In this document: positions 1-32,039 of the stretch, piece after piece
How positions within the stretch are numbered: position 1 is the stretch's first letter
Layout: the number at the start of each line of letters is the position of its first letter
Assembly (NCBI RefSeq): GCF_000143685.1
Contig: NC_014328.1
Coordinates: forward strand, 1,798,001 to 1,862,000
Direction: 5' to 3'
Length of the DNA: 64,000 nucleotides
Source of the DNA: Clostridium ljungdahlii DSM 13528
GTDB lineage: Bacteria > Bacillota > Clostridia > Clostridiales > Clostridiaceae
Made by a program: the position numbers and the translations under genes
The notes under the pieces: model-generated
The model's database searches: none
What the model was told of the DNA's origin: nothing
The model's input: only the letters and a program-made list of their open reading frames with translations

Positions 1-1037
1 AGGGAAAATACAAATATAGTCACATAGCTGTATTTTATAGAACAAACCTGGAATCAAGAAGTATAATAGATGCTTTTTTAAAATACAATATAAAGTTTAA
101 ACTTTTGGACGGTCAGTATAATTTTTATGAACATTTTATATGCAAGGATTTAATAGCATATCTTAAATTGGCTGTAAATATGTGCGATAAGAATAGTTTT
201 ATGAGAATAATAAATAAGCCTTTTAGGTATATTGGAAAAGTAAATATAAAAAAAGTTATAGATAATAGAATAAGGGAAAATTGCTTTGATATTTTAAGGC
301 AAGTAGGTGATTTACCTATTTTTCAGCTTAAAAACATAACTGTGCTTGAAAAAAATATTAGAAAATTAAATAGAATGAAGAAGCAGGATAGAATAAATTA
401 TATATTGGATAAATTAGATTATATGGATTATTTAAAAAATTACTGCATGAAATTAAATAGGGATATGGATGAACTTCAAGATATTATAGGAGAGTTTAGG
501 GAAGCTTGCGGAGAATTCGATAGTATAGAATCATTTTTGGATAATGTTGGAAAAGTGGAGCAGACTTTAGAGAAAGGTAAGAAAGAAGGTAATACAGTTA
601 CTTTAAGTACTATTCACGGCGTGAAAGGTATGGAGTTTGAGAATGTGTTTATAATAAACTGCAGCGAAGGGTTAATTCCCCATGCAAATAGCATACAAAA
701 TAATCTGGAAGAAGAAAGGCGGCTTTTTTATGTAGGGGTTACAAGAGCCATAGATAATTTGACTTTATGTTATTCAAGTACTATTAGGAAAAAGGCAGTA
801 AATGTATCCAGGTTTATAGAAGAATGTGACTTGTTAAATTCGGGAGAGCTTATGAAAAATTGCGATTTAGAAATAGGGGATTATGTAGTTCACAAAGTAT
901 TTGGAAGTGGAAAAATAATAGATAAGAGAGATAATTGCTTAAAAGTATTATTTTCAGGTAATAGAGAGATAGGATTTGATTTATCGGTTCTTTATAATGG
1001 ACAGCTGATGAAGGATGCTGCCAGAAAATGTTTGTAA
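1..1037 (+). CDS. UvrD/PcrA-like DNA helicase, C-terminal part (5' end outside window)
   Basis: This is the C-terminal part of an SF1A 3'-5' DNA helicase used in repair or replication. The frame is open from base 3, so the gene starts before the window and the TTG at 105 is internal. Early residues (VFYRTN, then SRSIIDAFL) match the UvrD 2B/2A region. STIHGVKGMEFENVF is motif V, and EEERRLFYVGVTRA is motif VI. The last 55 residues (GDYVVHKVFGSGKI) look like the Tudor-like C-terminal domain of PcrA/UvrD. Bases from 614 onward are duplicated at 41859, so the present C-terminus was probably supplied by the prophage. The protein looks intact. The exact paralogue cannot be decided without the N-terminus. 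Confidence 0.88.
   Translation, partial: GKYKYSHIAVFYRTNLESRSIIDAFLKYNIKFKLLDGQYNFYEHFICKDLIAYLKLAVNMCDKNSFMRIINKPFRYIGKVNIKKVIDNRIRENCFDILRQVGDLPIFQLKNITVLEKNIRKLNRMKKQDRINYILDKLDYMDYLKNYCMKLNRDMDELQDIIGEFREACGEFDSIESFLDNVGKVEQTLEKGKKEGNTVTLSTIHGVKGMEFENVFIINCSEGLIPHANSIQNNLEEERRLFYVGVTRAIDNLTLCYSSTIRKKAVNVSRFIEECDLLNSGELMKNCDLEIGDYVVHKVFGSGKIIDKRDNCLKVLFSGNREIGFDLSVLYNGQLMKDAARKCL
614..1021 (+). repeat. Left copy of prophage-flanking direct repeat (attL region)
   Basis: These 408 bases are identical to 41859-42266. Identity begins at TCACGGCGTGAAAGG, inside helicase motif V. Past the repeat the two copies still resemble each other over about 60 bp, with scattered changes around and after the stop codon. 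The left flank is helicase coding sequence; the right flank is phage DNA leading to the integrase. Confidence 0.92.
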
Positions 1038-1154
1038 TAAGAGGTAAATGTATCCTAATTCATAAGTGAGTTTCCATTAATTTTTAAAATTAATAAAATT
1101 TAATTACTCCATACATCTAAATATTAAAATTTGTGTATAAGGGATGGAGTAAAA

Positions 1155-2114
1155 ATGGGTGTTAAAAAACTGATAAACGTGGTTAAAAAGCAGGATAGAA
1201 GCATTAGAGAAATTTATGAAAAATATTTAAAACATTGTATTTCTATAGGCCAGGCACATGGAACTATAGAGTCAAAAAAGCAATTCTTTAGGTATTCACT
1301 TCCTAAAATAGTAAATGTAGATGATAGTATAACTACTTTTACAAAACATAAATTAGAAGAACATATAATATCTATGAGAAAAGCGGGTTATGCAGGTAAT
1401 TATTATCAAACCTTTGTTATTAAATCAAAAGCATTTTTAACGTATTGCTTTAATCATCATTATCTTAAAAAATTTGAAGTTAAAATTCCAACAATAACTC
1501 AAAAGAAAAAGGATATTTATACAGAAGAAGAATTAATTAAATTACTGAAGAAACCAAATCTGAAAACCTGCCTTGTGGGAGAGTATAAATCATGGGTAAC
1601 TATAAATTTTTTATTAGCTACTGGAGCAAGAAGTGAAACTTTATTAAATGTGTTAGTTAAGGATGTGAATTTTCAAGAAAAAAGTATCTTATTTAGACAC
1701 ATGAAAGCACATAAGCAAATAACAGTACCCCTAAGTCCTACACTAGAATATGTATTAAGAGAATATGTAGAATTATTGGATTTAGAACCAGACAATTTAT
1801 TATTTCCTAAATTAGATAAAAAGAAAATGAAGTATGACACACTTCACGAAACTATTAATGGCTTCTGTAAGCGTAGGAATGTAGCTATGAAAGGCATAAA
1901 CACATTCCGTAATACTTTTGCTACATTGTTTATTAAAAATGGAAATAATAATATATATTTACTTCAAAAATTATTAGGACATGCTGATATTAGAATGACT
2001 GAGAGATATATTAACTTATTACCCCTTGAGATGAAAGAAGATATTAATAAATATAATCCTTTAGATGTGTTGAGTCATAAAAGGTTGACATTGAATAAAG
2101 GAGGTAATAGGTAA
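1155..2114 (+). CDS. Tyrosine recombinase (phage integrase)
   Basis: This is the site-specific recombinase expected to insert and excise the prophage. Residues about 10-110 form the SAM-like core-binding domain and the rest is the catalytic domain. Visible catalytic residues are R159 (ATGARSET), R252 (TFRNTFATLF), H276 (LLGHADIRMT) and Y285. The first His of the usual HxxR box is Asn (N249). ATG 1155 is preferred over the upstream in-frame TTG at 1131 because GGATGGAG lies just before it. The gene sits about 120 bp inside the left attachment repeat and overlaps the next gene by one base (TAATG). Confidence 0.93.
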   Translation: MGVKKLINVVKKQDRSIREIYEKYLKHCISIGQAHGTIESKKQFFRYSLPKIVNVDDSITTFTKHKLEEHIISMRKAGYAGNYYQTFVIKSKAFLTYCFNHHYLKKFEVKIPTITQKKKDIYTEEELIKLLKKPNLKTCLVGEYKSWVTINFLLATGARSETLLNVLVKDVNFQEKSILFRHMKAHKQITVPLSPTLEYVLREYVELLDLEPDNLLFPKLDKKKMKYDTLHETINGFCKRRNVAMKGINTFRNTFATLFIKNGNNNIYLLQKLLGHADIRMTERYINLLPLEMKEDINKYNPLDVLSHKRLTLNKGGNR

Positions 2115-6224: not shown

Positions 6225-6899
6225 ATGATAGGACTTTACTTCATTAGAAAATTATATAATATGTCTATGGATGAATTAGCACATAATCTAAATATAACAA
6301 AGCAAACAGTATCTAAATGGGAAAAACGAAAGATCCCTATATCAGATAAAAGATTAAATCAACTTTCAAAAATATTTAATATTCCACAAAAATATTTTCA
6401 AAAGGAACTGGATGAAATAGATAGAATGGAAATTCAAAATATAAAATTGAATAGTGAACTTAAAAATTATGAATATCAATATGAGGACACAATTACAGAT
6501 CCAGACACAGGAGAAGAAATAACTGTAACACAAACTAGTATAGATGAAGGTGCATTATTTGATTTTAGCTTAAATAGTTACAATTTGAATCAAAAAAAAC
6601 TTTTAATAGCCATAAAAGATTCAATGGATAGGCAATTTGAAGAAAATAATGATGAATATAGGGATTATGGATTAGGTAACGCTAATGAAATATTGGAATT
6701 ATATGAAAGGTTTTTAAAATTAGTGAATAATGCAGATATAGATAATAACACTATAAAAAGAGTATTAATGGGTGTACAACTTGCTTATGGAAAAATTTTT
6801 GATTCCGAGAAATTTGTTAGAAAAATTGCTAAAGATATAAAAGAATATAATAAGGAAAGTAAAACATGGAGTGATGAAGAAGGTGGTGAAAGGTTATGA
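6225..6899 (+). CDS. XRE-family transcriptional regulator, 224 residues
   Basis: The N-terminal XRE helix-turn-helix spans residues about 4-55 (MSMDELAHNLNITKQTVSKW). It is followed by a linker containing an acidic DPDTGEEITVTQTS segment and a helical C-terminal region of about 110 residues (NANEILELYERFLKLV). It is distinct from the switch repressor and resembles no specific phage repressor I can name. Tandem operator-like repeats in its own promoter suggest autoregulation. It precedes the actin/RHH and polymerase block, so it may time that block. The ribosome site is weak (GATGTGAG). Confidence 0.7.
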   Translation: MIGLYFIRKLYNMSMDELAHNLNITKQTVSKWEKRKIPISDKRLNQLSKIFNIPQKYFQKELDEIDRMEIQNIKLNSELKNYEYQYEDTITDPDTGEEITVTQTSIDEGALFDFSLNSYNLNQKKLLIAIKDSMDRQFEENNDEYRDYGLGNANEILELYERFLKLVNNADIDNNTIKRVLMGVQLAYGKIFDSEKFVRKIAKDIKEYNKESKTWSDEEGGERL

Positions 6900-9154: not shown

Positions 9155-9643
9155 ATGGCTGATGATAGAAGAGTTAATATGTATTTTTCTGAAAGGAAAT
9201 TTATTGATGATGCTATATATCAGTATTTTAAAGATATGTCCAATAAGCAGGACGTTATGAAGATGGTTTTATATGAGTATGTTAAAAGTAAAAATGCTGC
9301 ATATCAAAATTTCGTTACGGAAACTACAAAAAAAGTACATGAAAATAGCACTAATACTACACATAAAAGTGTAAATGCAGTTACTAATAATTCACGTAAA
9401 AAACACAAAGACGTTACGAAAAAGACACAAGAATCACACAATAATGTTACTAAAGGTACACCGATTAGTGAAAATATAGTTACCGATAATACACAAAAAG
9501 AAACTAAATCTACTCAAACTGGTGATAAGTTTAATGCTGATGATTTTATAACCGAAGAAAAAGTTGAAAATAAAGATGCAAATGAAAATGAATTTGATTT
9601 AATGGCTATATGGAAATCACAAGATAGTTTTATGAATAAATAG
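9155..9643 (+). CDS. Ribbon-helix-helix protein, likely ParR-type partner of the actin
   Basis: Residues 1-50 read as a ribbon-helix-helix DNA-binding domain (RRVNMYFSERKFIDDAIYQY, then a second helix DVMKMVLYEYV). Residues about 60-130 are a Thr/Asn/Lys-rich low-complexity linker with recurring VT/NT units. The acidic tail ends FDLMAIWKSQDSFM, a plausible hydrophobic peptide for contact with a filament end, as ParR C-termini do. It starts 3 bp after the actin gene, the standard parM-parR arrangement. The centromere it would bind is not identified. Confidence 0.65.
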   Translation: MADDRRVNMYFSERKFIDDAIYQYFKDMSNKQDVMKMVLYEYVKSKNAAYQNFVTETTKKVHENSTNTTHKSVNAVTNNSRKKHKDVTKKTQESHNNVTKGTPISENIVTDNTQKETKSTQTGDKFNADDFITEEKVENKDANENEFDLMAIWKSQDSFMNK

Positions 9644-9724: not shown

Positions 9725-12700
9725 ATGGCAGAAGATAAAATGTATAAAATTTTAAGATTGAAACTAAAGAATTGTAAGAGAATGGTTAACAAAGAAGGAA
9801 AGCAAATAGGTGTAGAAATCAGAATTAATGAAAACAAGTTAAGAAAATCAATGACTTTGGTAAAAGAACCTGAAACAATTAGAATTATTAAAACTTTAGC
9901 ACCTGATAGAAATAGTGAAGATTTGAATGGATTTACTTATGTTAAAGATCTAATTACTATGTCAGTTAATATTGATAAATATAGAGATATTATAAAATCT
10001 AATTATGGATTGGTTAATATAATATTTACACGAAAGCCAAAGCTAAATTATAAAAAATTTAATAGCAAAATTAGCAGCAAAGACTTTAATCATATAAGCA
10101 ATAAATCTTTAGAAAAATACAAATATAATATAAATATAGAATATAAAAATGAATTATTTAAAAGATTAATGGCTAGTTCGGGCAATGTTAGGAATAAGAA
10201 AGTAGTATTTATAAGAGAAAAATTATTTGATAAGACGAATGAAATTCTATTGTGTGGTCTTCCAGAAGATATGGAACATCCTGCATTTAGTAAATATAAT
10301 TCTTACTATGCTATGGCTTCTACGGATAGTATACCAGTTACAACTCCCAATTTTGTTGTCATAGATGATTATACAAGAAAAATAGAAGAAGTTTTTGATT
10401 ATGTTAAGGAAAAAGAAAAAGTAAGTAAAAAGGATAAGGATAATTATGAAATTGAAGAAGGTACTGAAAAAAGTAAGATTGAAATAACTCCTTTTGATGG
10501 TGCAGGACTGGTTGATGTAAGTTTAGCTGAACAATGGAAGAAAGATATAGGACTTGATTACTTGCCTTCTAGTTGGCAATTTAGAGCCATCCCAGGGATT
10601 AAAGGAGATGTATATACCTTTGACTTAAAGAAGTTTGCAAAGGAATTTAAAAGCGAAATTAAAGATGTATTTGGACAAACATGGGATTTATTCAAAGATA
10701 ACATTAATATGATTCTGACTAAAAGCCAATTTAAATTTTATAAGCAATATAAAGCAAATTTTGGTGAAGAAAAAGCTTTTAAAACATGGGAAGATAATTT
10801 TTACAAGGAATTACATGGATATAAAAGGACATTTAATATATCTAAATATTCAGAAAAAAATTTAAAGCATGAAGCTTTATTGAGTTATCAACCAATTCAA
10901 TCATTAGAATTATCAGATAATGATATTAAAAATTTGTGCAGTAGAACAGTTAAAAAGATTAAAAAAATAAGTACGGATGTAAATGAATTTTTAAAGTATA
11001 GAGGTGTAATTAATTCTCAAGAAAATGAAATAGGGGAACTTATATGTCAGAAAAGGATACCTCCATATTATAAGGCATTAAATGAAAACAAAGATTTATT
11101 TTATGATGATTATATCCAACAAAAAATTAAGGATGATATAAAAGGTTTTAAAAAAAGAACACTTAAAGGATGTATTTTTGTACCAGGTAATTATCAAACT
11201 TTAATACCAGATGTATTTGCACTAGCACAATATGCTTTTGGATTAAAAGTTACAGGTGGATTAAAAGCTAATACAGTATATTCGGAATATTGGGTTGATG
11301 AATATATAAATTTCTTTGCTAAAAAATTAAATAGTAAAAAAGAAAATATGAAATGTGGATATGATTACAATAAGTATTTATCAATGAAAGAAAAACTTAG
11401 AAAATTAAGAGATGGAAAAATTAAAGAATTAAATATGAAGATTGATGTTATAAGGTTTCCTCATGTTAGCAATGAACATTTTCCAGTTACCGTTGTAAAT
11501 CAACCTAATGATTATTATAAATATATGACTGAAGGAATAGTTACTTCTATGTATGATAGTTTAGCTTTACATATTGGGGGAGCTGACTATGATAACGACC
11601 ATGTACTTAGTACAAATGACCAGACTCTTGTAAGATGTTCAGTAGAGCAAAAAACAAATACTATAGTCCCAATATCATTAAAAGATCAAGAAAATGATGA
11701 CAATAAGATGCATAAAATAACTGATATGGATGAAATAATAGATACAGATATTAGGGGCATGAGCAATAATATAGGAAAAGCCGTAAATAAAATAACTAAG
11801 TTATGGAGTGTAGTTCCTAAAGATGATGATGAAAAAATTAAAGTAAGAAGATATATTAAAATTATGAGTGTCGTATGCAGTAAAATAATAGATTTTGCGA
11901 AAACTGGTAAAGCTGCAACTATCCCTTGTGAAATTGAAGAATATTTAAAAGATATTCAAAAGCCATATTTTCAAAGATATATATACAACCATGAAGTTAG
12001 TAGAGAAAAAATAATGAATGAAAATAGAGAGCTGTATGGTGAAGATAAGAAGTTTATATTTTCTGATACCAATTGTGTAATGAATAGATTATGTCACTAT
12101 ATGGAAAAGGAAATAGCTAATATAGATGATGAATTAAAAAAGAATAAAGAAGAACAGCTTGAAGAAAAAGCAGAAGATATTACTTGTTTCTATAGTGAGA
12201 AAAATACAGAGCAATTTAAAGATAAGAAATATGATAATAGCGTGTCATACACAAAATATATAAAACCTTTGCTAAAAGATTTAAAGAAAGAATATGATGA
12301 AATATCTAAGTATAACAGTCAGGAAAATAATAATATATTTTGTAGTAGTGATATAAAACAAGAACATGATGATAGATATAAAATATTTTATACTTATGCA
12401 AAGATGGAACTGATGAATATTTTAGAACATAAAGAATTAAAATTGATTAAAGAAAAGTTACTTGATTTTATTGTATTTGCTTTTTACAGAGATAAAGATT
12501 TTAATAAATTAGATAAGTCTTTATTATGGAATTGTTTTGGTAGTGAACTATCTTGCAGGATAAAAGGAAAATCTCTTATAGTAAAAAAATCTAAATTAAC
12601 TTACGAAGATAGAAGAGAGAAAATATCAAAACTTAAGAAGATCAATAATAAAAAGAATAAAATTTATATTAGTATATTTAAGAATGAAGAAAAAGATAAA

Positions 12701-13075
12701 CAAGTAGAAATTTTTGATAGTGAATTAGATGTTTTCAAAAATATAGGGAATAAAGATGAAAGAAACCTTCTTAAAGCATTATATATTATAAGTAAATTTA
12801 ATAAGGTTTTTAAAGGAAATTTTAAATTTGAAATCGAGAAAAATAAAAAAGATGCAATTACTAAAACACATATGTGTAAGTTAGCAGATATTGATGCTAG
12901 AAAATACCCTAATATATTGAAAAAAGTTATAACAAAACATGAAGACATTGTTACTATAGAACCTAGTAAGGATTATTCAAAAATTATTTGTGAATTTAAA
13001 AAAGATAAGTTCAGTAAAAATGGAAATAGCAAAAAATATACAGACATTAATGAATGCAGAAGTAGATTTAAATAA
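9725..13075 (+). CDS. Single-subunit RNA polymerase, YonO/QDE-1-like (two-barrel)
   Basis: This 1116-residue protein fits the YonO class: one-chain DNA-directed RNA polymerases distantly related to multisubunit RNAP and eukaryotic RNAi polymerases. First barrel: PFDGAGLVDVSLAEQW (D258) leads to SSWQFRAIPGIKGD, the DG-G-V and QxR-GxKG pattern of the family. Second barrel: VTVVNQPNDYYKYMTEGIV leads to the metal-binding loop GGADYDNDHV (D621, D623, D625), a variant of DxDGD with Asn for Gly. The rest is Lys-rich and helical. In SPbeta, YonO transcribes late genes, and here the gene sits just before the capsid region. It starts at an ATG behind AAGGGGG. Assignment is by motif; activity is not shown. 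Confidence 0.82.
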   Translation: MAEDKMYKILRLKLKNCKRMVNKEGKQIGVEIRINENKLRKSMTLVKEPETIRIIKTLAPDRNSEDLNGFTYVKDLITMSVNIDKYRDIIKSNYGLVNIIFTRKPKLNYKKFNSKISSKDFNHISNKSLEKYKYNINIEYKNELFKRLMASSGNVRNKKVVFIREKLFDKTNEILLCGLPEDMEHPAFSKYNSYYAMASTDSIPVTTPNFVVIDDYTRKIEEVFDYVKEKEKVSKKDKDNYEIEEGTEKSKIEITPFDGAGLVDVSLAEQWKKDIGLDYLPSSWQFRAIPGIKGDVYTFDLKKFAKEFKSEIKDVFGQTWDLFKDNINMILTKSQFKFYKQYKANFGEEKAFKTWEDNFYKELHGYKRTFNISKYSEKNLKHEALLSYQPIQSLELSDNDIKNLCSRTVKKIKKISTDVNEFLKYRGVINSQENEIGELICQKRIPPYYKALNENKDLFYDDYIQQKIKDDIKGFKKRTLKGCIFVPGNYQTLIPDVFALAQYAFGLKVTGGLKANTVYSEYWVDEYINFFAKKLNSKKENMKCGYDYNKYLSMKEKLRKLRDGKIKELNMKIDVIRFPHVSNEHFPVTVVNQPNDYYKYMTEGIVTSMYDSLALHIGGADYDNDHVLSTNDQTLVRCSVEQKTNTIVPISLKDQENDDNKMHKITDMDEIIDTDIRGMSNNIGKAVNKITKLWSVVPKDDDEKIKVRRYIKIMSVVCSKIIDFAKTGKAATIPCEIEEYLKDIQKPYFQRYIYNHEVSREKIMNENRELYGEDKKFIFSDTNCVMNRLCHYMEKEIANIDDELKKNKEEQLEEKAEDITCFYSEKNTEQFKDKKYDNSVSYTKYIKPLLKDLKKEYDEISKYNSQENNNIFCSSDIKQEHDDRYKIFYTYAKMELMNILEHKELKLIKEKLLDFIVFAFYRDKDFNKLDKSLLWNCFGSELSCRIKGKSLIVKKSKLTYEDRREKISKLKKINNKKNKIYISIFKNEEKDKQVEIFDSELDVFKNIGNKDERNLLKALYIISKFNKVFKGNFKFEIEKNKKDAITKTHMCKLADIDARKYPNILKKVITKHEDIVTIEPSKDYSKIICEFKKDKFSKNGNSKKYTDINECRSRFK

Positions 13076-13189
13076 GAACCCTAAAATAAATTGATGTGTA
13101 AAAACATATAAAGTCATTTAATAATAATGATTTTATGATACACTTGTAAATTTTACTATAGGAAAAAGATAGGTACACCCTATCTCACC

Positions 13190-13220
13190 GACATTATACA
13201 TTTTATTAATGTATAATGTC
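13190..13220. repeat. Perfect 12-bp inverted repeat after the polymerase gene
   Basis: GACATTATACAT and ATGTATAATGTC flank a 7-nt loop, with no T-run. It is either an operator-like dyad or the stem of a terminator for the polymerase transcript. It lies 43 bp before the promoter of the small-RNA locus. Confidence 0.6.
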
Positions 13221-13262
13221 AAGTGTTTATAAAACAATTTTTAAATTTATTGTGTTATATGA

Positions 13263-13450
13263 TTGACATATTTTATTGGTAACTTTGTTAATTTCAAGGG
13301 GTTCAAGTCCCCCTTCCTCGAAAACAAATGAGAAATTAACTGGGCAACGGGAATTTATACGTTGTAAGTATCATGATAATTAAATGATGATACTTTAATT
13401 TTGATTACAAGAAGTGAGGGTAAGCATTTATTACTTACTCTCCTTTTTTC
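13263..13450 (+). ncRNA. Candidate small RNA with a tRNA-like T-arm
   Basis: A promoter (TTGACA 13263-13268, 17 bases, TGTTAA) precedes about 150 nt without a coding frame. The RNA would begin near 13298 with GGGGTTCAAGTCCCCC, which matches a tRNA T-stem and B-box, then TTCCTCGA like an acceptor end. No matching 5' tRNA half is present. It continues with a GTATCAT/ATGATAC stem and ends at a terminator (GAGGGTAAG/CTTACTCTC, six Ts, 13416-13450). It separates the polymerase gene from the capsid operon. Confidence 0.5.
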
Positions 13451-13550
13451 TTTTTAGCACAAAATAAGCTAAAATTAATTAAATAAAATGCTAGAACGGT
13501 TGATATTACTATATTAATAAATAAAATTAAGCACAAGGGAGAGAGGAAGG

Positions 13551-13748
13551 ATGAATGATGAGATAATTGATATGATAAGACAAAAAATAATTTACTTGAA
13601 AAAAGAAAAAGGTGTTACATATCAGTTTATGGCTGATAAATCTGGAGAAGGGGTAACTAGATTTGATATCGCACATTTAGTTACTGATAATAGGAAAATA
13701 GGTAAAAGCAAATTTAAAAAATTAGCAAAATTTATATTAAATTATTAA
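13551..13748 (+). CDS. Small helix-turn-helix protein, 65 residues
   Basis: GGGAGAGAGGAAGG precedes the ATG. It looks like a minimal XRE-type HTH: TYQFMADKSGEGVTRFDIAH, then a basic helix KIGKSKFKKLAKFI. It is the first gene of the scaffold/capsid transcription unit, so it may regulate it. Family assignment is tentative. Confidence 0.55.
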   Translation: MNDEIIDMIRQKIIYLKKEKGVTYQFMADKSGEGVTRFDIAHLVTDNRKIGKSKFKKLAKFILNY

Positions 13749-15619: not shown

Positions 15620-16450
15620 ATGACACTTATAATACCTCAAGTATATAGCCAAATAGTAAGAGAAAAATTTTTAGGTAAAATAAGGGTTGCTTTACTTGCA
15701 ACACCTATAGGTGATTTACCAGAATTTGCACAACAGGGAGATACAATACATTTTCCTAAATGGAAAATAATAGGAGATGCAACAGAAGTTGTTAAAGGTA
15801 CTCAATCTGCAATAGAAACATTAGATCAGGATGATTCTACTGCAAAAATTAAATTCATTGATAAAATTGTTAGATGCTATGACTATGATAGTGTTACCGA
15901 AATTGGTAATCAGTTAGAAGAAGCTTCAAGCCAACAAGCTGTAGTATTTGCGAGGGCATTAGATACAGATTTATGCACAGAAGCTTCAACTACAGATCTT
16001 AAAACTGCTACAGCAAGTGCGACAGCTATAACAGCAGCAGAATTAGATACTGCATTAGCTAATTATGGTGATGATGCTGATGTGGATGATATGGCAGGAA
16101 TTGTTGTAAATAGTAGAATAGATAGTTCTTTCTATTCAATGGATGAATTTGTTGATGTGAATAAAACATTTACACAGACAGGAAATGGTATAGTTAGAAA
16201 TGGTATGATTGGTTATTTTAGGGGAATACCAGTTTTTCATAGTAATCATGGTACTTTTGATTCTACTACAAATGAGTGTAAATCATTCATTATAAAGAAA
16301 GATGCACTTGGTTATAAGGAAAAGAAGGCAATAAACATAGTAGAAGAACGTGAAGAAAAACTTCATTGTTCTGATATTGTGGGTTCGTATATGTACGCAG
16401 TTAAAATGCTTACAGATGGAATAATTATGCTTAAAAAGACCATAGCATAA
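15620..16450 (+). CDS. Major capsid protein (N4-gp56/HK97-fold type)
   Basis: This 276-residue protein has the features of N4-gp56/P22-like coat proteins: an N-terminal arm (IIPQVYSQIVREKFLGKIRV), a beta segment with GDTIHFPKWKIIGDA, a variable alanine/threonine region at residues about 120-150, and the conserved late segment RGIPVFHSNHGTF near residue 205. It ends in strands that close the P domain. The start follows AGAAAGGAAATG. Placement right after the scaffold gene supports the call. Terminase and portal are encoded 16 kb downstream rather than next to it. Confidence 0.85.
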   Translation: MTLIIPQVYSQIVREKFLGKIRVALLATPIGDLPEFAQQGDTIHFPKWKIIGDATEVVKGTQSAIETLDQDDSTAKIKFIDKIVRCYDYDSVTEIGNQLEEASSQQAVVFARALDTDLCTEASTTDLKTATASATAITAAELDTALANYGDDADVDDMAGIVVNSRIDSSFYSMDEFVDVNKTFTQTGNGIVRNGMIGYFRGIPVFHSNHGTFDSTTNECKSFIIKKDALGYKEKKAINIVEEREEKLHCSDIVGSYMYAVKMLTDGIIMLKKTIA

Positions 16451-18583: not shown

Positions 18584-19618
18584 ATGAATACAAGCAAATT
18601 AGAATTAAATAAAGAATATAAGAATTATAAAGTATTATGTATAATATTAGAAGAAAAAATTAAAAATGGTAAATCAAAAAAATTACAATTGCAAGATTGG
18701 AGTAGATATTTTAAATATCATAAAATTGGTAATAAATTTATTATTGATGAAATATATGATACTCCAAAAGAAAAAATTGATAATAGAAAAGGGCATAGTG
18801 GTAAAAATAAAAACAGTAGAAATAATTGTATTTATGGTGGTTCTGTAGATATAATATTATCTGATTATTTTAAAAATACAAGTAATGCAATAATATATAA
18901 AACTACAAATCAATTAGCAGTACAAGCAGGATTGATTAATAGAAATTATAGTTCTGCATTTAGTAATAAACATAATTTTTTTAAATATTCTACTAAAGAT
19001 ACAGAATTAAATTCAACAGCAGGTTTTGATTTTTTTAGTTTTTGCAAAGGTTCATTAAAAGATATTATTAGAAAATCTTTACAAAGATTATATTCTTTAA
19101 AATATATTATTTTTGAAGAAACTTATTTACTTTCTTATCAATATGAAGTTAGAAGAGCAACAGAGGAAGAAATTCAAATTATCGAAAATATAGAACAGCA
19201 AGTATTAAAAGATATGCAAATAGATAACAAAAACAAACTACAGTATAATGATAAATTAAGGAAAAGATATTATGATAAAATAAATAATTTAGCAATGGAT
19301 AAAATAGATAATTTAGATGTGCTTTATATTGGATATAAGATAACTATAAATAAAGATAATATACCAGATGAAAAACATGATATTCAACAGTTAAGAGAAG
19401 AATTAAATAAATTATTTAAAGAAAGAACTCTTATGAAAATGCAAAAAAGAAAAGATAAATATGTAGAAGGTAATCCTTATATTGGACAACCTAGTCCATT
19501 TTGGGAAGAGTTTGTGCTAGAAAGATTAAATGAAAATTATATGCAGTATGCTAATTATATATGTAATATGTTATTGGATCTAAAGACGAAAGATATAAGA
19601 GATTACTTAAAATTATAA
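18584..19618 (+). CDS. Hypothetical phage/plasmid protein, 344 residues
   Basis: AGAAAGGAT precedes the ATG. The N-terminal segment (LQDWSRYFKYHKIGNKFIID, then EIYDTPKEKIDNRKG) looks like a small DNA-binding or initiator-type domain. I believe similar N-termini occur in Firmicutes plasmids and phages but cannot name the family. The middle is Asn/Lys-rich, and the C-terminal third is helical with LREELNKLFKERTLM. A role in replication or regulation is possible but unsupported. Its stop codon touches a 17-bp perfect terminator stem. Confidence 0.55.
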   Translation: MNTSKLELNKEYKNYKVLCIILEEKIKNGKSKKLQLQDWSRYFKYHKIGNKFIIDEIYDTPKEKIDNRKGHSGKNKNSRNNCIYGGSVDIILSDYFKNTSNAIIYKTTNQLAVQAGLINRNYSSAFSNKHNFFKYSTKDTELNSTAGFDFFSFCKGSLKDIIRKSLQRLYSLKYIIFEETYLLSYQYEVRRATEEEIQIIENIEQQVLKDMQIDNKNKLQYNDKLRKRYYDKINNLAMDKIDNLDVLYIGYKITINKDNIPDEKHDIQQLREELNKLFKERTLMKMQKRKDKYVEGNPYIGQPSPFWEEFVLERLNENYMQYANYICNMLLDLKTKDIRDYLKL

Positions 19619-23229: not shown

Positions 23230-26200
23230 ATGGCAGATGGATTAAAAATAGGTTGGAATCAAGAAAATTTAAACCAAATGATTCGACAAATTGAAGAAAT
23301 GAAAAATAAAGTTACAGAGAATAGCGTAAATATTTCTATAAATAAAGATAGTGTACTTAGTCAATTGGATTCTATGATCTCAGGGATTAAGAATATGCAA
23401 GAAAAAGCTTCAACTCCAATAGATATACAAATAAATACAACCAAAAGTCAAGAAGAATTGGCTAATATCAAGGGTAGTTTTGAAGATATAGCAAATGCAT
23501 ATAAGAATTTAGGTAATGCAAGCTTTAGTTCTATTAATTTTGATGGTAATGGTATGTTGAAAGACTTTACTATTCAATTGGAGCAGGTCAATGGACTTAT
23601 AGATAAAGTAAAATATAATGCTAAAGACTTTGTGGATGGACAGAATAATATGACTCCAATATCATTTAAGGTGGATAATATTAAACAAATTAATGATATT
23701 GATAAAGTAATAGATAAGGTAGAAAACTTTAAAAATAAATATAATGATGCTATTAGAGATTTACAAGGCAATGGCAATGTTAAAGAAAGTTCTATAGGTG
23801 AATTCCAAAAGCAATTAGATTCTTTAAATACAACTAATTTTAAGGAAAAAGCTAATGAAATAAAAAATACATATAACGATTTATTAAATCAACAGAAACA
23901 ATATACTACTGAATTAAAACAACAGGAACAATTAAGTAATTTTGTTACTGTTCAGAAAAATAAATTAAATAATACAAGAAGTGGATATAATGGTAAATTA
24001 GATACTGGCAGTACACAGTATCTTGAACTAGAAGTTACATATGGAAAATTAATAGAGGAATTAAATACATATAAAAAGGAAGGAAAAGCACTTACTACAG
24101 AGGAAACCAATGATATTAAAGAGAGAATAAACAATTTTGGCAGAGAAAAGAATTCTATATTAGAAGTTACAAATACTATAAAACAACAAGAAAATGCTGT
24201 AGATGGATTAAAAAATAAATTTGGTAATATTATACCTACTAGCAAAATAAATCAAATAAAAGAAGCATTACAAAGTTTATATAAGTCAAACGATTTAAAA
24301 GGAGATAGCAATGCTATTTCCCAAGAAATAGAAAAATTAAAACAATTAGCAAATGAAGTTCAAAGAGTAAAAGGATTTGGCTCTAATGCAGGTACTTTTA
24401 GTGGTACAGGAATAAATATGGGTTCTAGTTTACAAGACATAGAAGAATTTATTCAAAAGACAGTAAGTGCTAAAGCTAGTATAGATAATATAAAAGAAAG
24501 TATGGATTCTTTAGGAAATAAGGTTAAGACGGTTACTTATAGCGTTAATGAAGGTAATGGTGTAATTAGTAAACATAAAATGACGATAGATGAGGACACA
24601 AGCTCTTTGTATAATATTGCTACTGGACTACAAAATGCAAGTTCAAAAAATAGTTCTTTTAGTTCTAGTATAGGTAATGCGGTTAAGAATCTTGCACTCT
24701 ACGCAACGGGAGCAGGGCTTGCTTATGAAGCAATTAACAAAATCAAAGATGCTATCGACAACGTTAATAGTGTAAATAAATCACAGGCAAATTTGCAGAT
24801 GGTAACTGGAATGAATCAAGATCAAGTTAAAGGACTTACTAAGCAATATACAGATTTAGCAAATCAGCTTCATGTTACCCAAAGTCAAGTGTTATCAAGT
24901 GCTGAGAATTTCCTTAGAGCAGGTCATAGTGTACAAGAATCTATGGGACTAATAAAAGCTACCAATATAGGGGCAGCATTAAGTGGTCAAGACGCAAAGG
25001 ATGTAGCAGATCAATTAATAGCTATTTCTAATGGATTTAGGATGAATACGTCTAATGCAAAAGAATTAAATGATGTAGTTTCAAAACTCACCGTTGCAGA
25101 TAATGAAAGTGCTACCAGTTTTAAGGAAATAGCAACAGCAATGCAGGGATCAAGTAATATGGCACAATCTGTAAAAGTAGATTTTAATCATCTGTTAAGC
25201 TATATAAGTACAGTATCTAGTGTTAGTAGAAGAAATGCAAGTAGTATAGGTCAATCTTTTGTTGCACAATTTGCACGATATCAAAATGTAAAAGGTGGAC
25301 AAAAATTTGATGCTGAAAATCAAGATTTATCAAACGTTGAGAGGGATTTACATAAATATGCTGATATAAATTTAAGGTCTGATTCTAAAACTTTTAAATC
25401 ATATGAAACGGTTATAGATGATCTAACTAAGAAGTGGGGAAAACTCGATGAGGTGTCTAGGGCTGCCATATCAAAAGCCATGGCGGGAACGACACATGCT
25501 GAAGATTTCCAAGTGTTAATGAATAATATGGACAAAGTTAATGGAATGATGAAAGATTTAGGTAATGCTTCAGGTTATGCAGAAAAACAATATGAAAAAG
25601 TATTTGCTAAAAGTACACAAGCAAGAATTAATGATTTTAAAAATAGTTTAACTGGTTTATATCAATCAATGATTTCTAGTGAATCTATAAATAAGGGTTT
25701 AAATGCTTTAACAGGTTTTATAAAAACATTGGATACATTAGCAACTACGAGTAAAGGTTCTGGTGTTGCATTAGCAGGATTAGCAGCAAGTATGGTATTA
25801 ATAATAACTAAAGGAAAAGCTATTACAGGATTATTTACACAAATAGGAATAGTATTAAGTAATTTTATGATTGTAGCTAGTAAAGCAGGAGTAGTAGCTG
25901 GATTAGCAGATACATTCAATATATTGGCAACTTCTATAAAAGGCGTAACAGTAGCATTACTTACTAATCCATTAACATTGACAATTGCAGCTTTAGGAGT
26001 AGCCACAGCAGTAATAATAAAGCATGTAGAACATCAAAAAGAATTAAAAGAACAAACGGATGGTTTAAGAGATTCTTATGTTACGTTAACTCAAGCGATG
26101 AAGGATAATGATAGTGCTAGTATAAGTTCATCTTCTAAAAATTTAAAATCTTCACAGGAACAGTTACAAAATTTAATTAAACAAAGAAATGAATTACAAA

Positions 26201-29200
26201 AACAAATGAATAGTTCTCCTAATATAGGAGATCCAAGGGTAGATGCTCCAATAAAAAATATGAATGCTAGTAAGTTAGATGATGTAAATAAAAAAATAAA
26301 AGAGCAGGAACAAGTATTATCTGATGCAGGAGTAGCTTTTAATAAAACCACTGGAGAGGTAATGGCTTTAACTGTTGCAGAAAGTAGAATAGAAACAAAT
26401 GGTGTGGTAGATAAAATTAAAGATACTACTCAAGCTGAAATAGACCACAAAGATGAAATTATAAAATTAGGAAATGAATATAACAATTTAGCTCAAATAC
26501 AGAAACCTAGCATAGATCAACAACAACAAATGAGTGATTTAGCACAAACTTTAAGTAATAATGTTTCTGGATTAACAACAGTAAAAGATAAAGATGGTAA
26601 TGTAACTATAAAAAATAATGGTTTATTAAATGCAGAAATATCTATATTAGGTGATGAAGGAGTCTCCGTAGATAAATTAAAGCAAATTAAATTAGATGCT
26701 GCGAAATCTAATGAACAAGTGCAAATTGGAGAAACTACTGTTACATACGAACAAGCTAAAGCAAGAGTTCAAATATTAAATGATGAAGCTAATGCTTGGA
26801 CTGGTGTTGCTAATATGTCTGAATTACCAGATTCTACAAGAAAGATGGCTCAGGGTTTTGCTAAAAATAGTAAACAGAAAGCTAATGATATACAAGCTTA
26901 TATAAATAATATTGATAATACTTATAATAAAGCCATGAGTGATACTACTTCATCAACACAAGCATTAACAGATGAAAACAATAATGGATATACTCCTAGC
27001 GAAGACGGAGCAACTTCATCTACTAAGAAAAATACAGAAGCACAGAAAGCACAGAAAGCAATAATAGATAAAGTAAAAGAAGCAACTAAAGAATATGAAA
27101 CAGAATTAAAAAATCTTGACAATATTGAATATAAATTAGAAGATAATTTGAAACATATGGATGAAACATCGGAAAAATATCGTCAAGGATTAAGAGAAGA
27201 AATAGATATATTAAAGCAAAAAGAAGGTTTTTTACAAAAAGGAATAAATTTAAATAATTCTAGTATGGGAGCATTAGGAGGATATGCTAGTGGAGCAGGT
27301 TCTCAATTAGGCGAAGAGGTAGCACAATTAGCAGAACAATATCAAGGCGTACCTTATGTTCGAGGTGGTGCAGATCCTTCAGGTTTTGATTGTTCAGGAT
27401 TAGTTCAATATGTATACTCACAACTTGGTATATCACTTCCTAGAACATCAGAAGAACAATTTACAGTAGGAACACCAGTAGATAAAGATAATTTACAACC
27501 TGGAGATTTAGTATTTTTTGAAGGTAGTTCTCCTGGACATGTCGCAATTTATACTGGAGGCGGAGATATTGTAGCGGCAACACATTCTGGAAGTGACGTA
27601 AAAGTAGAATCTTTAGATGATGTAGCTAATGCAGATGGATATAGTGGTGCTAGACGAATTGTTTCAGGAGGTTCTAGTAGTGAATCTTCTGTACCAAGTG
27701 AAATGACATATAAAGAAATTGTAGATGCAGCAGGTAGCAAATATGGTGTAGATCCTAACCTTATAGCAGCAGTAATAGAACAAGAAAGTTCATGGGAAGC
27801 TGACCAGAAAACTGGTGGTGCTGTAGGATTAATGCAACTTGAACCAGAAACAGCAGAATCTATGGGATTACCAAGAGATCAAAGAACAGATCCGTTAAAG
27901 AATGTAATGGCAGGAACTCAATATCTCGCTGGATTAATTAATAAGTATGGTGAAGAAAAAGGTGTAGCTCTTTATAACACTGGTGAATATGGTGGAGGAA
28001 ATTATGGATATGCTAATTCAGTAGAAAGTAAAAAATCTGCATATGCTAGTGGTAGTAAATCCATTCCAAATAGTAGTGCAGATGTTAGTGGAGATACTGA
28101 TGTACTATCTGAAATGGATGATTTAAATTCTAAAACAGCAGATTATCAAAAACAGTTAATAGATGCTCAAAGTAAAGTTTTTGATACATATACAAGAATT
28201 TATAATTCTCAATTAGATGAATTTAAATTACAGATAGATAATTATACTAAATTACAGGAATATAATAAGAATCAATACGATTTATTAAGGGAAACTGATT
28301 TTACTTCTGCTGATAAATATGCAAAAGCTGAATGGCAGGATGAAAATGATATTTATGGTGTGTTAACAAAAAAAGAAACATTTATTAAAGACCAACAGAA
28401 ACAAAATGTTTATGACGAAGCTACTCTTGCTAAAATGAAACAAGATTTATTAGATACTCAAGAACAAGAAGTAGAAACCATTAATAAATTACATGATGAA
28501 TTCACAGAATGGCAGGATAATGCTCTTACTGATGCTACTAAACACTATAAAGATCAATTAACTGAAATTCAAGCACAATTAGATTTAATAGATACTAAAG
28601 ATAAAAATAATTATCAAGATGAGCTAGAATTGAATAAACAAGAATTAGAACAGCAAGAAGAAATTAAAGCAAGAACTGAAGAAAGATTACAAGCAATAAA
28701 AGAATTAATTGATGCTGAAAAAAATGATACTACAAAACAAGTATTGATTGATGAATATAATAAAATAAATAATGAATTATTAGCTACTTCAAAAGAAATA
28801 GCTTCTATAAATAATAGCATTGATGAATTAAATCTTGAAAATAAATTAAAATCATATGTAGATGATATAAAATCTGTTAATGATGAACTTGATGTATTAA
28901 ATGATAAAACTGATTCTTCAAAAGCAAATGGAGAAACTATTGAAGATTTTGATAAAAAAATAGGTTATTATAATCAGATTAATGATGATTTACAGAAACA
29001 GATTGATCTTTATACACAACAAATTAAATTATGGCAAGATTTACGTAGTGAATTTGAAAAAGGTTCTGAATTATGGACGGAATATAATGATAAAGTTAAT
29101 GATGCCCAAGGAAAATTAACAGAGTTAGAAAAAAATAAAATTGATAATGCTAAGAAAACGGAAGAATTAACTGAAAATCAAGTTCTTGATATAGCTGAAA

Positions 29201-31566
29201 ATGCTATATATGGTGGTAAGACTCAACAAGAATTTGAAGATAATGCTAAAGCTAGAGAAAATGCCATTGATGAACAACTTAAATTAATGGATAAACAAGA
29301 ACAGAATCTTCAAGAACAAGAAACTAGGAATAAAAATTTACTTGATTTAGAAGAAGCTAGAGTTAAATTACAGGAAGACCAATCTAATAAAAATGTACAG
29401 GAACTTACTAAGGATAAAAATGGTAACTGGCAATTTACATATGTAGCTAATCAGGATACTGTTGATCAAGATGAAAAAGATATGCGTGATAAAATGCAAT
29501 CTAATAATGATTGGGAAAGACAAAATAAACAAAAACATGACCAAGATGCGTTGAATGATGAAAAAGAACAACTAGAAGAAGAAGTATCAATGCGACAAGA
29601 AGCTATGGAACGTATAAAAACTAATATTGAAAATAATTTTAATGACCAAAGAAATCTATTCACTACAGGTCAAACAGATATTGCTACAATCGTAGAAAAT
29701 AGTTTATCACAAATATCTAATTTATACAGTAGTACATTCCCTGAAATCACAAATATTATAACAGAAAATGTTGAAGCACAAATAGCCGAAATGAATAAAT
29801 TGAATCCTAATTTTGCTAATGTCCAAAATGCTATTACAGGAATTACTAATCCTCAAACACCAGCAGTTACACAACATGTAGTGTATGGAAGTGGAATTGA
29901 CATCGATAATGCAAAGCAAATGTTTGGTACTGATGGAATTACATATGTGAACATAGACAAAGATCATATGACAGATGAACAACGTAAAAAAATTAAATTA
30001 GGAGATAATGATTTACTTCTTGGTGGTGCAGGTGTTACTTATGGAATTACAGAAAATCAAAATGGCGGTTCTGGAACTAGATTATGGGGACAAGATAGAT
30101 ATGCTACAAATGAAAAGATGGCAAATTGGTCAGAAGAAAATCAAGAAACTAAGCATTTTGTATTTGCGGCAGGAGAAGATCTAATAAATGCAAAGGCAAT
30201 TTACGGTGATGCCTATACATATATACCTACAGATAGATGGACAGAAAAAGAATGGTCTGAATTACATACAAAAGCAGGAGATAAAGTAATAGGTTCACAA
30301 GATCGTACACCTGGATTAGTACTAAATGGTGCTACTCGTATATATGGACAAGATAGAAATGATACAGCAAATAAAATTGAAAATAATGCTTTAGATAAAG
30401 GTATTATTGATAAAAGAAATGTTTATGCTGGTGGAAAAGATTATGAAAGTGCTAAACAACTACTTGATAGTACATATTATAATCTTATAGATATATCTTC
30501 TAAGGATTTTGATGCTTCTAAAGTGAATTTAACTGGTGATGATTGGGTATTAGGAGGAGAAGCAGTAACTAGTTCACTTAACAATCAAATATCTCAGTCA
30601 AGAGCAAGAAGAATTTATGGACAGACCGCAGATGATACTAAAAAGGCATTAGAAAAAGCTAGAGATGATGATTTGGCAAATGTTCAAAAATATAATCAAA
30701 ATGTCACTAAAAATATAAAACAAAGCACTCAGAAACAAACAGTGTTAATACAGGATGCTCAAACTAAGGAAAGTTATTCAATTGAAGTTGGAGCAAATAC
30801 TAATTTAGATACAGTTATTGCAAGCATGGGTAATATTTATGATGTAACTAACGATGGCATGGGTAGAGTGGTTGTAACTGTAAATGACCATGTACAAGAG
30901 GCAATAGAATCATTTAATAAATTATTGGAGGCAGAGGCAGCAGCAGGAATTCAAGTTAGTTCATATACTCCAACAAAAATTGGGGATGTTGATACAAGAC
31001 CAGTTGAGTATGCCACAGGTGCAGATGCTAAGATTTTGGAAGTCCAATATGGTGAAACTATTAGAATTTTACCTGGTACTGGATTTAGCCGAAGACCTGG
31101 CTCAACGAGATATGATACTAATAGATTATATCAAGAAGATTTAGCAAGAAAAGGATATCTACCTATTCATGATGCAGGTGATTTATATAAATATGCAGAT
31201 GGAGGAAAGATTGATTATACTGGACTTGCAATAGTAGATGGAACTCCAAGTAAACCAGAAATGGTATTAAATTCAGATGATACATCTAAATATTTAGAAG
31301 CTTCAAAATTAATAAGAGATGTTGATTTAGATAAATCACTTAATGCATATCAATATATTCCAGATTTAATGCCGAATTTAATGAAATCTATACCTATGAA
31401 TAATTTAATAAAGAATAATTGTAATCAGCAACCTACACAAGTATCTAATACTTTTAAATTTGATAAAGTAGAGTTGCCGAATGTTACAGACGTTGAAAGT
31501 TTTGTAAAAGAATTAGGTAATTTTGGAGTAAGGCAATTTACTAGTAGTTATGTAAATGGTTATTAA
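23230..31566 (+). CDS. Giant tape measure protein with NlpC/P60, transglycosylase and CWB2-like regions
   Basis: At 2778 residues this is the longest gene here. Residues 1-500 are coiled coil. About 510-860 match the TP901-type tape measure core (NQDQVKGLTKQYTDLANQL). Hydrophobic segments lie near 840-930. About 1370-1470 is an NlpC/P60 peptidase (GFDCSGLVQYVYSQLG, C1388; GHVAIYTG, H1437). About 1500-1600 is a transglycosylase (VIEQESSW, E1519; AVGLMQLEPETA). About 2217-2475 carries three CWB2-like repeats (TRLWGQDRYATN, TRIYGQDRNDTANK, RRIYGQTADDTK). The C-terminus has the usual ADGG...GLAIVDG...PEMVLN box. It sets tail length and probably opens peptidoglycan during entry. The CWB2-like part is unusual. 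Confidence 0.9.
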   Translation: MADGLKIGWNQENLNQMIRQIEEMKNKVTENSVNISINKDSVLSQLDSMISGIKNMQEKASTPIDIQINTTKSQEELANIKGSFEDIANAYKNLGNASFSSINFDGNGMLKDFTIQLEQVNGLIDKVKYNAKDFVDGQNNMTPISFKVDNIKQINDIDKVIDKVENFKNKYNDAIRDLQGNGNVKESSIGEFQKQLDSLNTTNFKEKANEIKNTYNDLLNQQKQYTTELKQQEQLSNFVTVQKNKLNNTRSGYNGKLDTGSTQYLELEVTYGKLIEELNTYKKEGKALTTEETNDIKERINNFGREKNSILEVTNTIKQQENAVDGLKNKFGNIIPTSKINQIKEALQSLYKSNDLKGDSNAISQEIEKLKQLANEVQRVKGFGSNAGTFSGTGINMGSSLQDIEEFIQKTVSAKASIDNIKESMDSLGNKVKTVTYSVNEGNGVISKHKMTIDEDTSSLYNIATGLQNASSKNSSFSSSIGNAVKNLALYATGAGLAYEAINKIKDAIDNVNSVNKSQANLQMVTGMNQDQVKGLTKQYTDLANQLHVTQSQVLSSAENFLRAGHSVQESMGLIKATNIGAALSGQDAKDVADQLIAISNGFRMNTSNAKELNDVVSKLTVADNESATSFKEIATAMQGSSNMAQSVKVDFNHLLSYISTVSSVSRRNASSIGQSFVAQFARYQNVKGGQKFDAENQDLSNVERDLHKYADINLRSDSKTFKSYETVIDDLTKKWGKLDEVSRAAISKAMAGTTHAEDFQVLMNNMDKVNGMMKDLGNASGYAEKQYEKVFAKSTQARINDFKNSLTGLYQSMISSESINKGLNALTGFIKTLDTLATTSKGSGVALAGLAASMVLIITKGKAITGLFTQIGIVLSNFMIVASKAGVVAGLADTFNILATSIKGVTVALLTNPLTLTIAALGVATAVIIKHVEHQKELKEQTDGLRDSYVTLTQAMKDNDSASISSSSKNLKSSQEQLQNLIKQRNELQKQMNSSPNIGDPRVDAPIKNMNASKLDDVNKKIKEQEQVLSDAGVAFNKTTGEVMALTVAESRIETNGVVDKIKDTTQAEIDHKDEIIKLGNEYNNLAQIQKPSIDQQQQMSDLAQTLSNNVSGLTTVKDKDGNVTIKNNGLLNAEISILGDEGVSVDKLKQIKLDAAKSNEQVQIGETTVTYEQAKARVQILNDEANAWTGVANMSELPDSTRKMAQGFAKNSKQKANDIQAYINNIDNTYNKAMSDTTSSTQALTDENNNGYTPSEDGATSSTKKNTEAQKAQKAIIDKVKEATKEYETELKNLDNIEYKLEDNLKHMDETSEKYRQGLREEIDILKQKEGFLQKGINLNNSSMGALGGYASGAGSQLGEEVAQLAEQYQGVPYVRGGADPSGFDCSGLVQYVYSQLGISLPRTSEEQFTVGTPVDKDNLQPGDLVFFEGSSPGHVAIYTGGGDIVAATHSGSDVKVESLDDVANADGYSGARRIVSGGSSSESSVPSEMTYKEIVDAAGSKYGVDPNLIAAVIEQESSWEADQKTGGAVGLMQLEPETAESMGLPRDQRTDPLKNVMAGTQYLAGLINKYGEEKGVALYNTGEYGGGNYGYANSVESKKSAYASGSKSIPNSSADVSGDTDVLSEMDDLNSKTADYQKQLIDAQSKVFDTYTRIYNSQLDEFKLQIDNYTKLQEYNKNQYDLLRETDFTSADKYAKAEWQDENDIYGVLTKKETFIKDQQKQNVYDEATLAKMKQDLLDTQEQEVETINKLHDEFTEWQDNALTDATKHYKDQLTEIQAQLDLIDTKDKNNYQDELELNKQELEQQEEIKARTEERLQAIKELIDAEKNDTTKQVLIDEYNKINNELLATSKEIASINNSIDELNLENKLKSYVDDIKSVNDELDVLNDKTDSSKANGETIEDFDKKIGYYNQINDDLQKQIDLYTQQIKLWQDLRSEFEKGSELWTEYNDKVNDAQGKLTELEKNKIDNAKKTEELTENQVLDIAENAIYGGKTQQEFEDNAKARENAIDEQLKLMDKQEQNLQEQETRNKNLLDLEEARVKLQEDQSNKNVQELTKDKNGNWQFTYVANQDTVDQDEKDMRDKMQSNNDWERQNKQKHDQDALNDEKEQLEEEVSMRQEAMERIKTNIENNFNDQRNLFTTGQTDIATIVENSLSQISNLYSSTFPEITNIITENVEAQIAEMNKLNPNFANVQNAITGITNPQTPAVTQHVVYGSGIDIDNAKQMFGTDGITYVNIDKDHMTDEQRKKIKLGDNDLLLGGAGVTYGITENQNGGSGTRLWGQDRYATNEKMANWSEENQETKHFVFAAGEDLINAKAIYGDAYTYIPTDRWTEKEWSELHTKAGDKVIGSQDRTPGLVLNGATRIYGQDRNDTANKIENNALDKGIIDKRNVYAGGKDYESAKQLLDSTYYNLIDISSKDFDASKVNLTGDDWVLGGEAVTSSLNNQISQSRARRIYGQTADDTKKALEKARDDDLANVQKYNQNVTKNIKQSTQKQTVLIQDAQTKESYSIEVGANTNLDTVIASMGNIYDVTNDGMGRVVVTVNDHVQEAIESFNKLLEAEAAAGIQVSSYTPTKIGDVDTRPVEYATGADAKILEVQYGETIRILPGTGFSRRPGSTRYDTNRLYQEDLARKGYLPIHDAGDLYKYADGGKIDYTGLAIVDGTPSKPEMVLNSDDTSKYLEASKLIRDVDLDKSLNAYQYIPDLMPNLMKSIPMNNLIKNNCNQQPTQVSNTFKFDKVELPNVTDVESFVKELGNFGVRQFTSSYVNGY

Positions 31567-31637: not shown

Positions 31638-32039
31638 ATGAAAAAGACTGTAAATAATGATATAAAAAAAATAATAAAATCTAATGTAAATAAAATATGT
31701 TATTTTGTTAAATGGTATGTGGACTCAGATAGAAGTGAAAAAAGTTATAATGATGAGATAAAAGGTATGACACAAGTTGAATATGATACTGCTATGAATG
31801 ATTGGCTTGAGAGAGAAGATGTACAGGAAGCAATTAAAGCATATTTAAATCAAGTTAAAAATTTGAAAATGTTTGATATATATAATGCAATGTATAATAA
31901 GGCAGTAAAAAAGGGCGATGTAAATTCTGCTAAATGGTGTGAACAATTTTTTAAATCTGATTTCTTTAAAAATGGGGAAGATGAGGTTAATGAATATCTT
32001 AGTGGAATTAATATACCTGGATTGCAGGGTGATAACTAA
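31638..32039 (+). CDS. Terminase small subunit (probable)
   Basis: This 133-residue helical protein precedes and overlaps the large terminase gene by one base (TAATG). Its C-terminal part (AMYNKAVKKGDVNSAKWCEQ, then FFKSDFF) resembles the helix found in many Firmicute TerS proteins. TerS binds the packaging site and loads the motor. GAAAGGAGTAA lies before the ATG. The assignment rests mainly on position and this segment. Confidence 0.7.
   Translation: MKKTVNNDIKKIIKSNVNKICYFVKWYVDSDRSEKSYNDEIKGMTQVEYDTAMNDWLEREDVQEAIKAYLNQVKNLKMFDIYNAMYNKAVKKGDVNSAKWCEQFFKSDFFKNGEDEVNEYLSGINIPGLQGDN

Follow-up and report, generated by a model that had tools for sequence, protein, structure and literature searches.

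A YonO-type two-barrel RNA polymerase and its setting ahead of the late genes of a Clostridium ljungdahlii prophage

What would a prophage do with an RNA polymerase of its own, and why should the gene lie next to the capsid operon? The question arises in a stretch of 64,000 nucleotides of Clostridium ljungdahlii DSM 13528 (NC_014328.1, positions 1,798,001 to 1,862,000 of the forward strand), referred to as the window and used for all coordinates, where the open reading frame at 9725-13075 is confirmed from its sequence as a member of the YonO family of two-barrel RNA polymerases. We propose that its product is an active polymerase of a ~41-kb temperate phage, with both barrels in a single chain and DNA as template, which would be produced after prophage induction and would transcribe the structural (late) operon from a start in 13076-13550, behind its own gene. 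The polymerase would form a cassette, optional and exchangeable, between a partition-type pair (an actin-like protein, ALP, with its small partner) and the late genes, and prophages devoid of it would transcribe homologous late genes otherwise, presumably by the host polymerase. As a whole, we consider this reading, i.e. an active YonO-type late-gene polymerase in an exchangeable cassette, somewhat probable. The kind of enzyme is already known, as YonO type; what is of interest is the setting of this copy in the prophage. The gene and its parts are:

9725..13075, plus strand: YonO-family two-barrel RNA polymerase, 1,116 residues, ATG start
10496..10606, plus strand: first-barrel motifs DGAG, QFR and GIKG, residues 258-294
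11183..11623, plus strand: second double-psi barrel, residues 487-633
11585..11599, plus strand: metal loop DYDND with D621/D623/D625

The motifs of both barrels lie in a single chain, encoded by one open reading frame with 0 internal stops. DGAGLV occupies residues 258-263, QFR and GIKG fall near R287 and K293-G294, and D258, G259, R287, K293, G294, K337, D621, D623 and D625 are invariant in a 47-row alignment. The preliminary description of this DNA, made from the letters, had named DG-G-V, QxR-GxKG and DYDND segments; all are present, with the triad exactly at D621/D623/D625, which would serve metal-dependent catalysis as in YonO. Its further claim, that of a single-subunit enzyme resembling YonO and QDE-1, is supported. 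With tblastn, 34 phage records were matched; they include SPBc2 with its yonO (E 1e-26), Perkons, a Psychrobacillus phage (E 3e-35), and phages of Enterocloster and Thomasclavelia. Together, the motif set and the homology to YonO are far above chance level.

Family libraries were less informative: Pfam returned 0 families for the polymerase at E up to 10, PHROGs assigned it to phrog_8308 (“unknown function”, E 1.8e-89), and a sequence search of the PDB yielded chance matches only (best E 1.4). In a structure search, all 21 Foldseek matches in the PDB at E≤1e-3 were QDE-1 or RDR2, with the first-barrel residues inside a QDE-1 alignment that spans the whole chain and not the barrel alone. The structure of crAss-like gp66 (6VR4) is missing from the list of matches, which is merely an absence. 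Neither outcome that the preliminary description had named as a refutation (no match to YonO or QDE-1, or a predicted structure without the two barrels) was encountered; the three Asp would lie at the barrel centre. In a 39-row tree, the polymerase branch joins the SPbeta clade with support of 94/92, slightly under the starred level. The source genome (4,630,065 bases, one contig) holds a single copy; Clostridium ragsdalei P11 carries one 91% identical, and a viral contig of 41,133 bases an identical one. Within the genus, the family profile matched four of 13 genomes, and within the class 23 of 391, the source genome being counted in both. As a side observation, YonO-type genes also occur as shorter open reading frames in L009, L016, L068, L070, L080, L094 and L095 (595 and 501 residues in Enterocloster phages, 625 in an SPbeta-like one), perhaps cut by introns or inteins. 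In some clostridial genomes the polymerase match runs over two or three successive stretches, at G288:C1:10826-13765 (L030, L043, L047) and G331:C12:814307-816081 (L032, L045), i.e. split, decayed or two-subunit forms.

We turn to the position of the gene, for which the following neighbours matter:

6225..6899, plus strand: helix-turn-helix (HTH) regulator, repressor-like, 93% identical in viral locus L161
7863..9152, plus strand: ALP of plasmid-partition type, ALP_N E 8.2e-7 over residues 131-275, above the Pfam cut-off
9155..9643, plus strand: small protein directly 3’ of ALP, putatively ParR-like by position
13076..13247, plus strand: gap behind the polymerase, with the CATTATAC...GTATAATG dyad; candidate start-site place
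13248..13550, plus strand: non-coding late leader, with a T-arm-like hairpin at 13298 and a terminator-like hairpin plus T-run at ~13414-13455
13551..13748, plus strand: first protein of the late region, 65 residues, HTH-like by weak matches in PHROGs (best E 0.009), 95.4% identical in L161
14964..15542, plus strand: scaffold protein, phrog_172 E 1.4e-12, DUF4355 E 4.6e-7
15620..16450, plus strand: major capsid protein, phrog_544 E 4.7e-25

In the window, the polymerase directly precedes the capsid operon. In Perkons and PMBT24 a gene of HU or histone type lies between it and the terminase, and in SPBc2 yonN and yonK come after yonO. Genome G003 has a prophage whose late genes are homologous to those of the window (66% identity in the capsid, 55% in the scaffold) and which carries, at the same place, a polymerase that is only 22% identical. 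A search with the capsid protein matched 21 of 206 genomes of the family. We compared 15 elements, from 14 genomes, window included, and viral locus L161, the 14 being the window, G003, 11 picked by match strength and upstream sequence, and G547, included once a polymerase had been found there; of the 21, G453 (no upstream sequence) and the weak matches G449, G476, G484, G493, G573 and G577 were left out. A YonO-type polymerase lies ahead of the capsid genes in six of the 15 (window, G003, L161, G518, G544 and G547), a biased rate because G003, first found via its polymerase, and G547 entered the sample through that gene; among the 11 picked elements it is present in two (G518, G544).

In the tree, these six belong to four deep and well-supported branches. 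The window groups with G547, G003 with L161, and G544 with G001 and G025, whereas G518 is nested in the SPbeta clade; G003, G025 and G001 are long branches of unsure placement. When location at this locus is mapped on the tree as a label, 5 changes are needed, one of them due only to C. ragsdalei, the window’s sister, being outside the label; shuffled labels needed 5.7 on average and 136 of 500 shuffles were as low, so that the scatter is like that of shuffled labels. The flanking genes show another pattern. Between window and L161 it is 92.6% for the regulator, 41.6% for ALP, 22% for the polymerase, 95.4% for the HTH-like protein, 78% for the scaffold and 77% for the capsid. The window and G518 share 75% in ALP and 25% in the polymerase. 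With G547, the values are 38% over 1,088 columns for the polymerase, 73% for ALP and ~39% for both scaffold and capsid.

This pattern looks like in-situ swapping of an RNA polymerase. Late modules could instead move between elements with different polymerases; because the L161 pair is close on both sides, the direction that we favour is replacement of the polymerase, with its surroundings. In-situ swapping is on record for DNA polymerases of tailed phages (PMC11348598): there, too, a polymerase gene is replaced between otherwise conserved neighbours, the difference being that DNA polymerases are exchanged there and an RNA polymerase here. Swapping, if true, would extend from phage DNA polymerases to a transcription enzyme. 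In the open-licence literature, no title among the matches listed deals with this gene or with swapping of YonO-type polymerases, and the main text of a study that deals with C. autoethanogenum and C. ljungdahlii prophages (PMC4022347) does not contain the term “RNA polymerase”.

Where would such an exchange end, and what lies beyond it? The 150 bp behind the polymerase are 73% identical to C. ragsdalei over 152 columns and alignable up to 13228; they are not alignable with L161. Since the gap is common to C. ragsdalei and not to L161 while the leader is common to L161, the exchange border is placed near 13228-13248, and 13076-13247 may travel with the polymerase, which would make it the best candidate place for an enzyme-specific start site. 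The CATTATAC...GTATAATG dyad in this gap was considered as a general signature of the polymerase and rejected, as it occurs in 2 of 14 elements (window and G003). A scan for -35/-10 consensus upstream of the late genes gave matches in 14 of 14 elements and was dropped as uninformative.

The leader at 13248-13550 agrees with that of L161 in 260 of 301 aligned bases (86.4%), above the DNA identity of the scaffold (78.8%) and capsid (75.0%) genes. It has counterparts at 8779-9081 in L161 and 11129-11433 in L162. Its 13248-13500 part folds at -60 kcal/mol against -43.5 for shuffled sequence (z -3.41). By eye, the T-arm-like hairpin varies in stem sequence with pairing kept in window, L161, G539 and G477, and a hairpin with T-run resembling an intrinsic terminator is seen in window, L161 and G539. 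Rfam gave 0 matches in the window at the gathering threshold and six sub-threshold ones at relaxed settings in 13000-13600, the best by E being a 15-base T-arm match to transfer-messenger RNA (10.3 bits against a cut-off of 47, E 0.05). The leader is a candidate new RNA element. For SPbeta, too, PMC5467207 mentions a non-coding RNA that precedes the late operon.

A more ambitious version of the cassette view is that, in this group of clostridial prophages, the polymerase cassette in the slot between partition pair and late genes has been exchanged in situ among four deep YonO-type lineages, and lost or never gained elsewhere. The leader, which where traceable stays the same next to different polymerases (window, L161) or to none (G539, G477), would then be the common late control point, in place of a polymerase-specific promoter. 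We put this forward tentatively and regard it as doubtful; it is weakened by the fact that nhmmer matches to the leader are confined to 4 of 14 elements, namely window, L161, G539 and, at E 5.5e-5, G477.

As to what the enzyme transcribes, homology to YonO and gene position make a late-gene role likely, and by analogy a function in late transcription is plausible. According to PMC5467207, YonO is a strictly DNA-dependent polymerase, inactive once the triad is altered; without it 37 SPbeta genes are silent, it is required for late genes, and the late transcript begins at yonK. How YonO finds its start site is called an open question by its authors. Several results nevertheless weigh against our proposal. 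Firstly, the structure search covers the first barrel within the whole chain only, not isolated. Secondly, nine of the 15 elements (G539, G520, G030, G440, G477, G433, G482, G561 and G563) lack such a polymerase ahead of their homologous late genes: a whole-genome search found no YonO-type polymerase anywhere in G539, G440, G433, G482 and G563, whereas its matches in G520, G030, G477 and G561 are on other contigs or, for G520, also ~50 kb before the integrase. Thirdly, the leader is alike in elements with a 22%-identical polymerase or, at 71.5% (206 of 288, 32 gaps) in G539, with none, so that it is not visibly tailored to the enzyme. Fourthly, G547, on the same branch, has no DNA behind its polymerase that is alignable with the window. 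Lastly, the capsid, terminase and portal genes of the window are without counterpart in the C. ragsdalei element, where the polymerase is still under selection, and a scan of 10 of its 32 unmatched open reading frames revealed no clear capsid, terminase or portal. Because of the nine polymerase-free elements and of a leader 86% alike next to 22%-identical polymerases, dependence of the late genes on the enzyme is not established. The private late-transcription system of the preliminary description is only plausible: the gene stands directly before the capsid operon and relatives stand ahead of terminase or yonK, but the late genes also occur without it and the leader is shared. As late modules of one kind are found here together with polymerases of four branches or without any, the set makes it testable whether an own promoter or a shared leader or factor is used.

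The most serious rival, which we think unlikely, is that the main task of the polymerase lies not with the late genes but with the plasmid-like functions of the element, such as the partition pair, replication or priming, and early genes. Of the six elements with the polymerase, five have ALP, and of the nine without it, none (Fisher p 0.002, with rows that are not independent). The profile used for this count was made from four of these five positives and G025, the search covered 15-20 kb in most elements, and weak matches in G030 and G563 (E 0.005-0.006) were scored absent. ALP also occurs in G025, outside this capsid group. The C. ragsdalei element (G004:C55 ~80300-128100; L128, L018, L129, L130) keeps the integrase (58%), ALP, polymerase and tape measure, together with an FtsK-type gene (FtsK E 1.1e-54, weak terminase match E 1.8e-5), a helicase, ParB and methylase pieces; it has no recognised capsid, terminase or portal, and yet ratios of nonsynonymous to synonymous substitution (dN/dS) against the window are 0.122 for ALP and 0.175 for the polymerase. 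Against this rival, the polymerase gene precedes the late region in the elements read, G544 has a polymerase and no ALP detected, and the characterised YonO serves late genes. Separately, we observed a tubulin-like gene near a YonO-type gene in a Bacillus pumilus plasmid (L015).

Next, and already very unlikely, the gene might be a degenerate or inactive relic, with the Asn of its metal loop as a sign of decay. That Asn is real, as the preliminary description had it, but Gly is not near-universal at this position. In the 104 rows with a readable motif (window and sister included), the residue between the second and third Asp is G in 90, Y in 4, S in 3, N in 2, M in 2, F in 2 and T in 1, Gly probably being over-represented since the rows come partly from a scan whose second pattern requires G or N and whose best 80 of 82 matches were used. 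These rows belong to an alignment of 113 (120 less seven contained rows), 9 of which are gapped there; L111, one of the 80 viral loci, was excluded for a broken frame (237 residues). Asn itself is rare, limited to window and C. ragsdalei. As G547, the nearest relative besides that sister, has Gly (DFDGD), Asn probably arose on the branch leading to these two. Other non-Gly residues occur in 12 further rows on several branches, Ser is found in G003, and at least 4 changes are forced on well-supported branches; the notions that Asn marks a special enzyme and that the non-Gly state forms one clade were thus dropped, a non-Gly residue, found in 14 of 104 rows, being unexceptional. Moreover, the triad is intact in 104 of 104 rows, the frame is open, and dN/dS is 0.132 in the core (residues 136-955), compared with 0.199 for the tape measure. 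The value of 0.175 over the whole polymerase disfavours a relic and suggests an enzyme in use now or until lately.

Slightly less probable still is an RNA-dependent RNA polymerase, the label given in the records of Perkons, PMBT24, TR-TP1 and TR-TP2 and one to which the fold, nearest QDE-1 and RDR2, might seem to lend weight; YonO is, however, strictly DNA-dependent, and QDE-1 itself is in the PDB with DNA templates, so the fold cannot decide. Least probable of all is a virion polymerase injected with the DNA to act on early genes, like P23-45 gp96, a distant structural match, since despite retention of the tape measure gene with the polymerase in C. ragsdalei there is no fusion of the two, and position and relatives would suit a polymerase made in the cell.

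The remaining features of the prophage are:

614..1035, plus strand: left repeat copy and left prophage end, in the 3’ end of a host helicase-type gene; exact over 408 + 13 bp with one mismatch between
1131..2114, plus strand: integrase, phrog_1 E 5.6e-33
18584..19618: phrog_36702 gene (“unknown function”), between the capsid and tape measure regions
23230..31566, plus strand: tail tape measure, 2,778 residues, phrog_4211 E 2.4e-43
32039..33604, plus strand: terminase large subunit, phrog_2 E 4.3e-37
33619..34965, plus strand: portal protein, SPP1_portal E 1.2e-59
38757..40163, plus strand: immunoglobulin (Ig)-domain structural protein, by family-library matches
41859..42280, plus strand: right repeat copy and right prophage end, pairing with 614-1035

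Integrase, capsid, terminase, portal, tape measure and the flanking 422-bp direct repeat, which has one mismatch and bounds ~41.2 kb, bear out that the polymerase is prophage-encoded. The duplicated host gene end has a helicase match (E 5.9e-21); the C. ragsdalei element occupies the same site, with the same gene end duplicated around it. A further helicase match in PHROGs, a weak one, is to residues 41-125 of ALP (E 3.7e-4). The small partner of ALP is without PHROGs or Pfam match above cut-off; it recurs in G518, in G547 and, with a weak match (E 7e-5), in G003. In PHROGs, transglycosylase matches are seen for the tape measure and a single-strand-binding match (E 0.009) for the Ig-domain protein. 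The phrog_36702 gene has relatives in G561 and G563 and no match in C. ragsdalei. The PHROGs scan covered 38 window proteins, 37 of them within the prophage bounds, with the open reading frame at 2114-2548 and some small ones outside the scan; among these 38, no family for holin, endolysin, DNA polymerase or primase was found at E 0.01, a weak absence as the libraries miss much. A tRNA scan of the window found none.

How, then, does the enzyme compare with those known? YonO of SPbeta (PMC5467207) shares homology, a single chain, DxDxD, a prophage gene and a place ahead of the late transcript start. It differs in identity (26% over 55% of the query), length (839 against 1,116 residues), loop (DNDGD against DYDND), its CxxC-CxxC tail where the present protein has, by eye, a C-terminal extension, and phage size (134 kb against ~41 kb). 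The G547 polymerase comes from the same bacterial family and locus, has 1,121 residues and lies downstream of ALP; its DFDGD loop, ~39%-identical scaffold and capsid and unalignable DNA behind the gene set it apart. YonO-like enzymes are on record in Clostridium phage c-st and Bacillus phage 0305phi8-36 (PMC7824862); that of c-st has both barrels in one subunit, and its record means that the kind was already known in the genus Clostridium. QDE-1 and RDR2 have the same fold as the polymerase described here but are eukaryotic, 14-18% identical to it and act in RNA interference.

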